Of a stretch of DNA of 64,000 nt, positions 5,214 through 64,000 are shown in pieces. The notes below the pieces were generated by a model. It was not told the origin of the DNA, ran no database searches, and saw only the letters and a program-made list of their open reading frames with translations. The position numbers and the translations under genes are program-made. How positions within the stretch are numbered: position 1 is the first letter of the stretch; each line of letters opens with the position of its first letter. This DNA comes from Gemmatimonadota bacterium (GTDB lineage: Bacteria > JAAXHH01): assembly GCA_026702745.1 (NCBI GenBank), contig JAPPBT010000065.1:62001-126000 (forward strand), in the 5' to 3' direction.

Positions 5214-5828
5214 TCACAGCGGCATGCGCCAGATCAACTGAAGCTCGTCGGGGAACTCCTCGTAGACGTTGGAAATGATGGCGCCCAGGCGGCACCCCTG
5301 GCGGGCATAGAACCGGCACGCGGGCACGTTGGTATTCTGGGTTTCGATCTTGATCTCGACACAACCGTGGCGTCGTCCCCAATCCACCGTGGCTTCGAAA
5401 AGCTGCCGTCCCACGCCGGTCCCGCGATGGTCGGGGTGGACGCGCAGGTCCCACAGTACCAGGAGGTCGTCCCGCCCTTCCAGCATGTTCACGTTCGGCG
5501 TGCGACGGGCCAGCAACGCGCCGCCCACCCGCCGGGAACCGTCGTAGGCTGCGAGCAATCCCCACGCCGATGTGTCCCACCGGTCGAGCCACCGCGCGGG
5601 CCACCGGGCAGGCCCTTCTTCGGAGGTCTGATCGTAGTCCTTGACGTAAGGGGGATCCTCCGGTTCTTCCACCAGCGCGATACCCCCCAGGCCGCCGTCC
5701 GCCGGGTCGGCCCGGAAACGGGATCTCACCTCGTAGGCGATGGGTACACGGCCGTGTTCGGCCAGCATAGTCAAGGGTTCTTCGATGATCTTCAAAATGT
5801 AATACTCGGCGTAAGGTCCCGCGTGCAC
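5214..5828 (-). CDS. GNAT-family N-acetyltransferase
   Basis: This 204-residue acetyltransferase transfers an acetyl group from acetyl-CoA to an unknown amine. The CoA-binding motif A appears as VLWDLRVHPDHRGTGVGRQLFEATVDWGRRHGC, followed by IKIETQNTNVPACRFYARQGCRLGAI, the usual motif B. The N-terminal part (RVPIAYEVRSRF) resembles a subgroup that includes streptothricin-acetyltransferase-like proteins, so the long start, a GTG at 5828, is preferred; an in-frame ATG at 5768 would remove the first strand. It lies upstream of the PhyH gene on the same strand, separated by the palindrome. Confidence 0.8.
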   Translation of the reverse strand: MHAGPYAEYYILKIIEEPLTMLAEHGRVPIAYEVRSRFRADPADGGLGGIALVEEPEDPPYVKDYDQTSEEGPARWPARWLDRWDTSAWGLLAAYDGSRRVGGALLARRTPNVNMLEGRDDLLVLWDLRVHPDHRGTGVGRQLFEATVDWGRRHGCVEIKIETQNTNVPACRFYARQGCRLGAIISNVYEEFPDELQLIWRMPL

Positions 5829-5854
5829 CCCGGCGGCAACGCGCTACGTAGATT

Positions 5855-7015
5855 TTAGAGCTTGGCCACCAGGAGCGTCACGTCGTCCACAAACGGCACG
5901 CCCTGGCTGAACGCCTCGACGGCATCGATGATCTGCTGCTTCAGGTCCGACGGCGGCCGGTGTCCGTGGGACTCCACGACCTCCCGCAGGCGGTCTTCGC
6001 CGAAGGTTTCTTCGGTGGCGTTCTCCGCTTCGACGATCCCGTCCGAAAACAGGACCAGGGCGTCGCCCGGGCTCCACGGCCGTTCCACGGCCTCGAAGGT
6101 CGTGTCGGCGTCGATCCCCAGCAGGGGGCCGGTGGACTCCAGGGGCTCGGCCGTGTGCGTGTCCGCACGGTAGTGAAGGGGAAAGTGATGGCCTGCGTTG
6201 GCGTAAGCGTACCGCTGTGCGTCCGGATCGATCACCAGGTAGCAGGCCGTCATGAACAGCCAGTCGGGACCGGTCGTCTGCACGATCCGGTTGAGGGCGT
6301 CCATGACCGGGGCGACGTCCGGGTCGATCCGGGTCTGGGTGGCCCGGCAACTGCGGGCCATGGCCATGATCAGGCTCGCGTTGAACCCGTGGCCGGTGAC
6401 GTCGCCGATCAGCAGGCCGACCCGCTCGTCGGGCAATACGAAATAGTCGTAGTAGTCGCCCCCCACGTTCTCGGCCGGACGGCAGTAGCCGGTGAACTGC
6501 ATGCCGGCGTGCTGAAGGTCCTCCTGGGGCAGCATGGAACGCTGGATCTCGTAGGCGCGCTGGATATCCTGCTTGAGGCGCTCGTCCGCCTTGATCTGCT
6601 CCTGTGCCGCCTCGAGCTGTTTCAGATGGCGCGTCTCCAGCGCCCGTTTGATGGCCGTGACCAGGAGACCGGTGGTGTCGTCGGCGCGGCCCGATTTCTC
6701 CACGTAGCTGAAAGCGCCCGCTTCCATGCAGTTGACGATATTGGGCTGGGTCCCGTACGCGGTCAGCACGACGCATTCCGGCGGAGACTCGAGGGCCCGG
6801 ATGCGCCGGATCGCTTCGAGTCCGCCTTCCCGGTCCGTTTCGATCCACATGTCGATCACCGCCACGTCGACGGCGCCGCGTGCGTTGCCGATCCGGTCCA
6901 CGCCTTCGTCCACGCCGCCGGCGCAGATCACGTCGAAATCCGGTTCCAGGTCGAGGGAAACGGCGTCGGTGATGGCGGGGTCGTCATCGAGGAGGAGTAC
7001 GAGGGGTTTGGCCAT
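5855..7015 (-). CDS. Response regulator with SpoIIE/RsbU-type PP2C phosphatase output domain
   Basis: This 386-residue protein has a receiver domain (about 1-125; acidic pocket LLLDDDP, phosphoacceptor Asp55 in VIDMWIE, Thr in VLTAYGT, Lys in YVEKSG). A short helical linker (about 130-165, EAAQEQIKADERLKQDIQRAYEIQRSML) leads to a PP2C domain (about 170-386) with the metal-binding signatures GGDYYDYF, IGDVTGHGFNASLIMAM and LFSDGIVEAEN. Such proteins dephosphorylate anti-sigma-factor antagonists in partner-switching circuits. It is the last gene of the leuC-leuD-kinase cluster, 95 bp after the histidine kinase, which is the obvious phosphodonor. No RsbV/RsbW-like partner is present in the window. 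Confidence 0.92.
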   Translation of the reverse strand: MAKPLVLLLDDDPAITDAVSLDLEPDFDVICAGGVDEGVDRIGNARGAVDVAVIDMWIETDREGGLEAIRRIRALESPPECVVLTAYGTQPNIVNCMEAGAFSYVEKSGRADDTTGLLVTAIKRALETRHLKQLEAAQEQIKADERLKQDIQRAYEIQRSMLPQEDLQHAGMQFTGYCRPAENVGGDYYDYFVLPDERVGLLIGDVTGHGFNASLIMAMARSCRATQTRIDPDVAPVMDALNRIVQTTGPDWLFMTACYLVIDPDAQRYAYANAGHHFPLHYRADTHTAEPLESTGPLLGIDADTTFEAVERPWSPGDALVLFSDGIVEAENATEETFGEDRLREVVESHGHRPPSDLKQQIIDAVEAFSQGVPFVDDVTLLVAKL

Positions 7016-60057: not shown

Positions 60058-61287
60058 ATGTCCGACAGAAAAGAAGCAAGTACCACGACCAGGCCAGGGC
60101 TTTCGCGGCCCAGTCCGGGGCTTTCGCGCCGGGGATTCCTGAAAGGCGCCCTTGCGGGTGCCGGTGCGATTTCCTTTGGCAGTTACGAGGCCGTGGCCCA
60201 GATGGTGGGCGGCCCTTCCGTACGTGGCTGGGGGGTGCCCCCGGGCCTGGTGCGCATCGACGCCAACGAGAACGCCCTGGGGCCGTCTCCCCGGGCGGTC
60301 GAGGCGGTTTTGTCTCTGGTGACCAGCATCAACCGGTATGGCCAGAACCCGGACCTGCTGGGCAAGCTCGCCCGCCGGCACGGCGTACCCGTGGTAGAGT
60401 GGACGGACAGTCCCTTTGCCCCGGTACCCGACGCGTGGGTCGCGGTGGGCGCCGGGTCGTCGGACCTGCTGTTCGCCATCGGCCACGCTTACGTTCGCGA
60501 GGGCACGGAGGTCGTGGAAAGCCTGCCGGGCTTCGGTTTCATCACCCGATTCGCCGGCGTGGCCAACGCGGAACCGGTCCGGGTTCCCTTGCTGGAAGGC
60601 ATGAAACCCGATCTGGACGGTCTCAGCGCGGCCGTGACGGAACGGACCGCCATGGTCGTCGTGACTACCCCCGGCAATCCCACGGGCCAGTTGACCCCCA
60701 TGTCGCAGTTAAGGCCCTTTGTGGAGTCGATCCCCGAGCGCGTGCTGGTCCTCGTCGATGAAGCCTATATCGAATTCGCGGAGAACGAGGCCGACCGCGA
60801 AGGCGCGGCATCGCTGATCCCGGATCATCCGAACGTCATCGTGACGCGCACGTTTTCCAAGGTCTTCGGCATGGCCGGCATGCGGGTGGGATACGCGGTC
60901 GCCCGGCCGGAGGTGATCGCGCGGATCGGCCGCCACCGGGCCAACACGCTCACCCTCCTGTCCACCCACGCCGCGTCGGCGGCCCTCGACGACACAGACC
61001 ACCTGCGGCGTTCACAGGAACTGGTGAGTCGGGGGAAACGCTATTTCTACGAGCAGCTGGACGCCATGGGCATCGAATACGCACCGAGCGAGTCGAGCTT
61101 CGTGATGATGAACATGAAGACCGACGTGGACGAACTCGTCCGCCGGATGCGCGAGGAACACAACGTACTGGTGGGCAACGCGAGGGCGCGCTGGAATATC
61201 GAAGGCTGGATCCGCGTCACAGCCGGCCTGCCCGAGGAGAACGAGGCGTTTATTGCCGCGCTGAAGAAAGTGTTGGTGAGCAGTTAG
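60058..61287 (+). CDS. PLP aminotransferase, histidinol-phosphate-aminotransferase-like, with Tat signal
   Basis: This protein of 409 residues begins with a twin-arginine signal (SRRGFLKGALAGAGAISFGSYEAVAQ), followed by a class I/II aminotransferase closest in form to HisC: RIDANENALGPSPRAVEAVL, VGAGSSDLLFAIGHA, VVVTTPGNPTGQLTP, VDEAYIEFAE and the Schiff-base region RTFSKVFGMAGMRVGYAVARPE. AGGAG precedes ATG 60058. An exported PLP enzyme is unusual, as PLP enzymes normally act in the cytosol; Tat transport can carry a folded, cofactor-loaded protein. Substrate unknown. Confidence 0.85.
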   Translation: MSDRKEASTTTRPGLSRPSPGLSRRGFLKGALAGAGAISFGSYEAVAQMVGGPSVRGWGVPPGLVRIDANENALGPSPRAVEAVLSLVTSINRYGQNPDLLGKLARRHGVPVVEWTDSPFAPVPDAWVAVGAGSSDLLFAIGHAYVREGTEVVESLPGFGFITRFAGVANAEPVRVPLLEGMKPDLDGLSAAVTERTAMVVVTTPGNPTGQLTPMSQLRPFVESIPERVLVLVDEAYIEFAENEADREGAASLIPDHPNVIVTRTFSKVFGMAGMRVGYAVARPEVIARIGRHRANTLTLLSTHAASAALDDTDHLRRSQELVSRGKRYFYEQLDAMGIEYAPSESSFVMMNMKTDVDELVRRMREEHNVLVGNARARWNIEGWIRVTAGLPEENEAFIAALKKVLVSS

Positions 61288-61328
61288 GATTTGGTAGTTA
61301 GACGAATCTGCAGGGCATGTTGTAAAAA

Positions 61329-64000
61329 TCAGTAAGAACCTAAGAATCTCAACGCAGCATCTCTAACGTCTCCATTCTCATCATCTTTTCGTTGAATTGC
61401 GAGACTCACTGCCAATGGTTTCTCCATGTTTGGATGAGACAGTATTTGGATTGCTATCTTTCTGTATTCAGGATCGTTATCATCAAGAAGACCACACAAT
61501 TTAGTTAAATGTTCTTGTGAATATGGGATATCTGCATCCATAAGTTGCAGACATTGAAATGGGGAGAGTCTTTTTTCAGATATTTTTACCACCAATCTAT
61601 CCCTGGCATCTTCAGATTCGTAAGAGCGCTTGATCAAATCTTGCATGGCGTTCTTTGATACATCGGACCTGGCATCTTTGGTTAATTCAATAAGTTCGTC
61701 AAATCCCCAAACACCATAGTGAATTAAAGTTTCGCAAAGTATATCTCGCGGACTTTCTGGTACCGTACCACCCTTTTTGGGATATGGTTGTTCATTTACG
61801 GACCAGTGGTTAAATGCTTTTCTAAGGAGTTCCAATAGCCAGCCATTGGAACTGGAATTACTGGTACAACACCATTTAGCAGTAGACTTGGCTATTTTCA
61901 CTGAAGACGAGAAAAGTCCCGACATTACTATATCTTTATGGGAGTGCGCAACCGGAAACTTGACTTCGGCAAGTTTCTCATATAGGTACTGAGTGCCGAG
62001 TTTTTGGGGAGACTTGAGAGTTGTCACTATTAGGTTGTGCCCTATTCCGTTTGGAAGTTGACATGCCAATTCTGCTGCAATGTAAAGCGTTCTACCCTGC
62101 CCATTTTGAAATGTGCGTTTGCATACATTTAATTTATCAGTGTCCGGTAAACGCTCGTTAAGCAAATTCGCTGCAAGGATAGCCACCCACTGAGAGGGAT
62201 GGCTTAGGAGTTCTTCAAGTGTTTTGTTGTTAAATTCTACTGTCTGAGCTCGATCCCAGTCGACTTCACAAGGATCGACTTTTGGCATAGCTACTATTAC
62301 GCGTAAAGTTTCATCGAAGCCATCCACAGTGCGGTTGCTCCTGTTAAAGCCTCGTACCTCCTGCGCAAGGCGTTCTAACGAAAGACCGAAAACTTCCGCT
62401 GCTTTACGAAGCAATTCTTGTACTTGAGAATACTCACTAACGGCCTCCCAGACAAACGCATCATCTGCTGGTATTTTCATTATGTATGCTAACTGTAACA
62501 ATGCACCAAGGTGCTTCATACCAGTGGTTGGTGGTGTTGACAAGTCCTCATTTAAAAATGCACCAGCCAGTACTTCATGGAACAGGACTTGGTTTCCCGC
62601 ATAGTAACTGTTAAATCGCAAGTTACTGACATCGTAATCTTTAAAATGTCCCGCCAATAGATCAGACATTAAATCTGATCGACCAATCTTTGACAATAAG
62701 TCCTTAAGTCGAAATATGAAGTCGTGTGAAGCTAGATTTCTCAACCTTAAAACGGCGGATACTAGTTCATTTTGTTTCGCTTCAGGCAGGTTTTCGAGAG
62801 TGATTTCTATCGCATTACTCAAAAAGTGTTCAAAAACTCTTTTGTCTGGTGATTCCTTTAAAATCCAGTCTACGAATTCAGTGACGGCTGGGTTAAAAAC
62901 CGGATCCATGAAGATGTTACTGTCTTTTTCGCGAGTTATGTAATAGGAGATGGTTTTTTCCAGTTCAACCCGATCCAATTCGTCTCGAAAGTGACAAACA
63001 AGAATCGACCAACCTATTAACTTAGACCATTCTGGTGTTCCGGTAAGGAGCTTTCTTGCATGTTCAGAGACTTCGTTCAGCTTGCTCAAATCGTGTTCGA
63101 CTAAACACAATCCAACCGTGTAAGCCTTTCGGCGTTCTTCGGATTTTACAACTGCAAACACTTGGTCCCAAAAAAAGGTAAGTTTAACGGGGTCTATGCT
63201 GGTTGTGTTTAGGACTAAGGCCTGTAATACGGTGTTGATCAGATGGCGTTTCGGGTCACCGAATTTAAATTTCTCAATTGCTGTTTCGGCAACCAATGCT
63301 GCAACTGAAGTTTGAGTCGCAAAATAAAGGGTTTCTTCCAATTCTGCATTGTCAAGCTCGGACTCAATCAATTGTCGGGCATTGTCACTACCGATCGTTT
63401 CTAGAAACCGTGCGGCTGCAAATTCACCACATGATTTATGAGTGAATGCAATCAGTTCATGTTCACCATGGCGTAGCCTTTCGATGATCCCTGCTTTCTC
63501 CCAATAGAGAATTGATTCTTCTGTATCCGCCACAGATTCCAGATCTGATTTGCTGGTTACGAGTGCAATTTGCTCAGCACAAAGTGATTCAGTTTCCTGT
63601 GACGTCCTGAAAGGAGAAGTAGTAACCAACCAGCCCAAGTGGTTTAAAACTCTGTAGCGAATTGATCTTGGTACTTTGGCTGCATCGGATTTACGAGGAT
63701 CCAAGTTTTCGTCGATCAGTTTAATAACCCGTTTGTAAAGATCTATTTTTGATTTTCCGATTTCGTATCCTTTAAGAATCAGTGCTGCTGCAAAGGCACA
63801 AAGAAGTGGATTCGTAAATACCGTTTTGATCCCTTCAACCATTTCTAAGTTAGAATCGATAACGGTTTGTAAATCGTTACTGTCATTTGAAACTTCAGCA
63901 GAAATACCTAAACAGATTTTACTTAAGTGATCCTTTGTGTTTTCTGACTTGAGTGGCCTAATGTGGTAATGGCGCCAGTGTCTTAATTCATTTGAGTAGT
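61329..64000 (-). CDS. NACHT/STAND-type NTPase with HEAT-like repeats (partial, N terminus outside window)
   Basis: The frame is open from the right edge to a stop at 61329, giving 889 visible residues with the N terminus missing. The first ~190 residues resemble the end of a NACHT module: IKTVFTNPLLCAFAAALILKGYEI, IDLYKRVIKLIDEN, a winged-helix-like part, and AFTHKSCGEFAAARFLETI, a signature seen in many NACHT proteins. The remaining ~700 residues are helical and leucine-rich with HEAT-like repeats, clearest near the C terminus (DDNDPEYRKIAIQILSHPN; DDENGDVRDAALRFLGSY). The Walker A and B motifs must lie beyond the edge. The gene is much richer in A+T than its neighbours, which suggests recent transfer. 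Bacterial NACHT proteins include anti-phage systems; this role is inferred. Confidence 0.75.
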   Translation of the reverse strand, partial: YSNELRHWRHYHIRPLKSENTKDHLSKICLGISAEVSNDSNDLQTVIDSNLEMVEGIKTVFTNPLLCAFAAALILKGYEIGKSKIDLYKRVIKLIDENLDPRKSDAAKVPRSIRYRVLNHLGWLVTTSPFRTSQETESLCAEQIALVTSKSDLESVADTEESILYWEKAGIIERLRHGEHELIAFTHKSCGEFAAARFLETIGSDNARQLIESELDNAELEETLYFATQTSVAALVAETAIEKFKFGDPKRHLINTVLQALVLNTTSIDPVKLTFFWDQVFAVVKSEERRKAYTVGLCLVEHDLSKLNEVSEHARKLLTGTPEWSKLIGWSILVCHFRDELDRVELEKTISYYITREKDSNIFMDPVFNPAVTEFVDWILKESPDKRVFEHFLSNAIEITLENLPEAKQNELVSAVLRLRNLASHDFIFRLKDLLSKIGRSDLMSDLLAGHFKDYDVSNLRFNSYYAGNQVLFHEVLAGAFLNEDLSTPPTTGMKHLGALLQLAYIMKIPADDAFVWEAVSEYSQVQELLRKAAEVFGLSLERLAQEVRGFNRSNRTVDGFDETLRVIVAMPKVDPCEVDWDRAQTVEFNNKTLEELLSHPSQWVAILAANLLNERLPDTDKLNVCKRTFQNGQGRTLYIAAELACQLPNGIGHNLIVTTLKSPQKLGTQYLYEKLAEVKFPVAHSHKDIVMSGLFSSSVKIAKSTAKWCCTSNSSSNGWLLELLRKAFNHWSVNEQPYPKKGGTVPESPRDILCETLIHYGVWGFDELIELTKDARSDVSKNAMQDLIKRSYESEDARDRLVVKISEKRLSPFQCLQLMDADIPYSQEHLTKLCGLLDDNDPEYRKIAIQILSHPNMEKPLAVSLAIQRKDDENGDVRDAALRFLGSY

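Follow-up and report, generated by a model that had tools for sequence, protein, structure and literature searches.

The right-hand edge of the 64,000-nucleotide stretch analysed here (the window; C65:62001-126000, from a source genome of 3.9 Mb in 102 contigs) carries an AT-rich open reading frame, and raises the question of what kind of protein it encodes and how it came to lie there. A sequence-only reading had proposed the end of a NACHT module followed by HEAT-like repeats, in a gene opening a horizontally acquired island that continues past the window. We consider it likely (probability about 0.8) that the frame encodes part of an immune protein of the STAND type, namely its switch and its sensor, that it belongs to a horizontally acquired AT-rich defence island, and that the gene is split in this genome.

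Composition and content of the AT-rich block

The next 36 kb of the contig were added after the window. Positions above 64000 are extended coordinates, and a window coordinate equals the L005 coordinate plus 59999. The features of the block are as follows.

61288-64000, no strand: AT-rich island, window part, defined by composition and gene content
61329-64000, reverse: NACHT-HEAT ORF, window part (end of the NACHT module, winged helix, HEAT-type solenoid)
61746-61787, reverse: family-specific motif PYPKKGGTVPESPR, near the C-terminus
63402-63446, reverse: NACHT winged-helix motif FTHKSCGEFAAARFL, ORF residues 428-442, following the NTPase
Extended 64011-64031, beyond the window: RIIVTTR
Extended 64098-64127, beyond the window: Walker B IVLLCDGLDE, of the NACHT type (hhhhDGxDE), ORF residues 201-210
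Extended 64314-64337, beyond the window: Walker A GGPGSGKS, ORF residues 131-138
Extended 64727, reverse: coordinate to which the NACHT-HEAT ORF continues beyond the window (whole ORF, L005:1330-4728)
L005 4638-5321, reverse, beyond the window: nuclease ORF
Near L005 4700, beyond the window: frame break
L005 5396-5812, reverse, beyond the window: hicB
L005 ~5813-5998, reverse, beyond the window: hicA relic
L005 6126-7730, forward, beyond the window: methyltransferase-HNH gene
L005 7967-8827, forward, beyond the window: Clp-like protease
L005 8837-9049, forward, beyond the window: small ORF (70 aa)
Near L005 9130: island end

The abrupt fall in GC content reported at about 61.3 kb is confirmed, the value dropping from 0.65 (60750-61249) to 0.40 (61250-61749) and staying at 0.39-0.45 until the window ends. 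It returns to 0.61-0.64 near extended coordinate 69.1 kb, and the AT-rich block spans ~7.8 kb of the extended contig. Third codon positions show the same shift, with GC3 of 0.36-0.55 for genes within the block versus 0.76-0.86 beyond it, and of 0.36 for the NACHT ORF versus 0.82-0.86 in the genes that flank the island. The AT-rich DNA does not look like a single clean insertion: it flanks hicB left and right, with the NACHT gene on the left and the methyltransferase-HNH gene, the Clp-like protease and the 70-aa ORF on the right. The island thus does continue beyond the window, as proposed, but it is only 7.8 kb long and the NACHT gene makes up one side of it. Of the features that the earlier reading had proposed to look for, defence-type genes are present in it and integrases and tRNA sites are not: no tRNA was found at the island, no recombinase or integrase among its ORFs, and no direct repeats at its termini. 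An integrative element borne by an integrase or a tRNA site was rejected on these grounds. The methyltransferase-HNH gene encodes a DNA methyltransferase with an HNH domain fused to it, and relatives of the gene occur at other loci of this genome and its genus (G006:C39, G005:C1 and G000:C102), the last of which (L058) is broken into two ORFs.

The NACHT-HEAT protein and its family

Within the window the reverse-strand frame at 61329-63998 is open for 889 codons, which are the C-terminal 889 residues of a 1132-aa ORF on the contig. Both Walker motifs are present in the 1132-aa ORF. The winged-helix motif has six residues (F, H, K, E, A and A) that are invariant in the four family members. In the window frame, Pfam HEAT_2 matches the C-terminus with an E-value of 8e-6, slightly under its curated cut-off. 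The full ORF matches NPHP3_N (E 1.8e-6; 28.7 bits, above the cut-off of 24.8) and, just below threshold, NACHT (E 1e-4; 22.5 bits, cut-off 26.7), a cut-off that is passed by two homologues with 31.2 and 32.3 bits. AlphaFold2 folds the window part, run with two homologues, into an all-helical solenoid (pLDDT 70) with HEAT proteins, among them CAND1, SF3B1 and karyopherins, as its best matches in the PDB; sequence searches of the PDB gave no meaningful relative. The winged-helix motif, the HEAT_2 match and the HEAT-like solenoid model agree with the description of the frame as a NACHT end joined to HEAT-like repeats. Based on the Walker A and B motifs, the NACHT-type profile, the winged helix and the C-terminal repeats, we assign the gene to the NACHT STAND NTPases (bNACHT).

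A 227-aa ORF lies directly upstream and overlaps the NACHT ORF by 91 bases. It is 40% identical to the N-terminus of a 1344-aa protein of Rhizobium plasmid pRLa11, the rest of which aligns with nearly the whole NACHT ORF (27% identity). In each of the four family members this domain is matched by the PADLOC model PDC-M54A, with E-values from 4e-7 to 4e-14, and the residues D62/D63 and Q77-x-K79, corresponding to the catalytic D and (E/Q)xK motifs, are invariant among them. An AlphaFold model of the domain was of low confidence (pLDDT 38) and unsuited to a fold search, so the fold assignment rests on motifs and profile links, by which the domain is probably a PD-(D/E)xK DNase of the Cap4/LmuA-like type. 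A literature search for PDC-M54 returned nothing.

Besides the Rhizobium protein, intact homologues are found in a Dadabacteria MAG (1333 aa) and on an IMG/VR contig (1339 aa). All three are single fused proteins with the domain order nuclease-NACHT-HEAT. The four-member alignment has 161 invariant residues, to which the Walker lysine, the DG.DE motif and the nuclease residues noted above belong. The family is rare. Among 384 sampled genomes the gene occurs in the window genome only; the phylum's 15 other genomes have no relative. A scan of the genome collection returned one relative (the Dadabacteria MAG). The viral scan found none with the NACHT part and one with the nuclease part, and rescans with wider alignments recovered the same one only. 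PADLOC and NCBIfam hold no full-length model that matches the NACHT family. The neighbours of the homologues are restriction-modification, other STAND, and transposase or integrase genes. At L034:1764-12660, two tandem nuclease-NACHT STAND genes precede a DUF697-containing GTPase and a gene of the HsdR type. The Dadabacteria homologue (L031:570-16832) is accompanied by an Eco57I-like methylase, a DruA/transposase-like gene, a DDE transposase and a second STAND-like NTPase of 1590 aa.

Several known defence systems resemble this family in part. Avs (AVAST) STAND sensors combine a nuclease, a STAND NTPase and a repeat sensor, and share this general plan; no Avs profile in PADLOC matched at E-values up to 0.1. 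The likeness to PDC-M54A is confined to the N-terminal nuclease-like stretch, as only ~80-90 N-terminal residues of the 1621-residue model are matched and the NACHT-HEAT part is not. The L034 homologue matches Lamassu LmuA weakly (E 3e-4), and its tandem STAND neighbour matches both LmuA (3e-7) and Hachiman HamA (5e-4); LmuA and HamA have only the effector domain in common with these proteins, and no LmuB or HamB partner is seen at the locus. Similar in plan are bNACHT25 and bNACHT32 of bNACHT clade 6, which also possess an N-terminal PD-(D/E)XK DNase, a central NACHT and a C-terminal helical sensor region (PMC12169576). Clade-6 proteins have NCH1 C-terminal domains, whereas a long HEAT-type solenoid and a PYPKxGG motif are found here, a comparison made by description only.

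In clade 6 the DNase is needed for defence and DNA is degraded on infection (PMC12169576). Since the domain order is the same and the catalytic residues are conserved, sensing through the HEAT region, NACHT-driven oligomerisation and DNA degradation are the most likely mode of action for intact family members. By analogy with bNACHT25/32, an intact protein, with its N-terminal DNase effector, central NACHT NTPase and winged helix, and C-terminal HEAT-type sensor, would remain silent until the solenoid senses an infection cue. Oligomerisation via the NACHT module would then bring the nuclease domains together, and the gathered domains would degrade DNA and stop the phage from multiplying, whether or not the cell itself dies. 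STAND NTPases have signalling roles as well, and the protein could in principle be a non-immune regulator, such as a developmental or transcriptional switch. We regard this as very improbable, as the N-terminal nuclease keeps its catalytic residues, the distribution of the NACHT family is patchy, and all homologues lie in defence-type or mobile neighbourhoods. Read as an immune protein, the gene enlarges the bacterial kin of NLR immune receptors by a rare nuclease-NACHT-HEAT family whose members come from distant phyla.

Frame break and route of entry

The N-terminal effector and the NACHT module do not form one polypeptide here. Because they are a single protein in all three homologues, the gene here is split by the frame break, and we read the separation of the effector as decay of a family member, not as a sign of another family. 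With the ancestral single gene interrupted between nuclease and NACHT, this copy is probably non-functional, or at best yields two separate polypeptides. A sequencing or assembly error in a gene that is intact in the living organism would explain the same observation, and draws some strength from the two frames, which are otherwise open over their full length (1132 and 227 aa) and conserve the catalytic and Walker residues. The break, however, falls outside any long homopolymer, large flanking genes (MetH, 1233 aa; permeases, 803 and 802 aa) are free of frame errors, and the adjacent hicA has decayed too; we therefore think such an error unlikely, while giving it appreciable weight. Translation of both ORFs, by frameshifting or re-initiation, into a two-subunit nuclease and NACHT sensor is much less probable. 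The NACHT ORF does have its start codon in the last stretch of the nuclease ORF, within the overlap, but inspection by eye showed neither a canonical slippery heptamer nor a clear ribosome-binding site there. Programmed frameshifting was rejected, given the absence of a slippery site and the fusion of the homologues. A gene split by decay, as we prefer to read it, offers a natural example of how a defence gene can decay once it has been transferred.

The same site in eleven genus-mates contains nothing in four and a resident hicB in seven. It is flanked by a convergent aminotransferase and FtsX-type permease, separated by a few to ~50 bases in G001, G006, G007 and G008. The NACHT gene is thus no conserved resident of this locus, which in relatives is either empty or occupied by hicB only, and we read it as acquired horizontally, together with the rest of an AT-rich defence island. 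In the window genome the HicAB toxin-antitoxin pair is not intact: hicB is whole, with 78-82% protein identity to that of genus-mates, and hicA has decayed, keeping its upstream palindrome and start codon. In hicB-bearing genus-mates hicA is intact in four of the five inspected.

The AT-rich DNA may have entered in two separate insertions at a resident hicAB site, or an AT-rich relative may have supplied it as a single block that included hicB. The hic region itself has a GC content of 0.475, compared to 0.545-0.60 in relatives, and is more diverged from them (74-79% nucleotide identity) than the flanking aminotransferase (86-93%), both of which favour the single block. Against it, most genus-mates have hicB in precisely this position, enclosed by the same convergent gene pair. 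We give entry as one block a little less than an even chance.

The neighbouring protease and small ORF

The Clp-like (SDH-fold) protease of the island and the small ORF behind it are a more novel lead than the NACHT gene. Relatives of the protease were found at 65 IMG/VR loci, with a full-length ORF in 58. After removal of near-duplicates, 34 loci remained, and in 27 of these a small ORF begins between -30 and +50 bases from the protease stop; the small ORFs of the pair are 56-78 aa long. An S24-type (CI-like) repressor ORF lies upstream on the same strand at 17 of the 29 loci with enough upstream sequence, compared to one in the 4-kb downstream control, part of the 17 having served to build the profile. 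Pfam identified CI-type repressors upstream in 10 of 10 loci, which were chosen because they show such a gene. In phage lambda, rexAB occupies the same position after the CI repressor. The gene bstA, too, sits downstream of cI (PMC8585504).

PADLOC models matched neither the protease nor the small ORF, PHROG 11747 has no function assigned, and our literature searches found no description of the pair. We tentatively suggest that the two genes could form an undescribed immunity module, in which a Clp-fold (SDH-type) serine protease with a 56-78-aa partner would counter phages, either expressed in lysogens or encoded by the host, a reading to which we give rather less than even odds. In temperate phages the pair recurs immediately behind CI-type repressors, where genes for superinfection immunity lie, and it lends itself to direct testing in laboratory strains. 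Two genus-mates have the protease behind genes for a methyltransferase and a BglII-type endonuclease (type II restriction-modification). Loci of the pair, other than L005:7967-9049, are L050, L054, L055 and L063-L119, and in Rhizobium plasmids it is found near multiubiquitin/ThiF genes.
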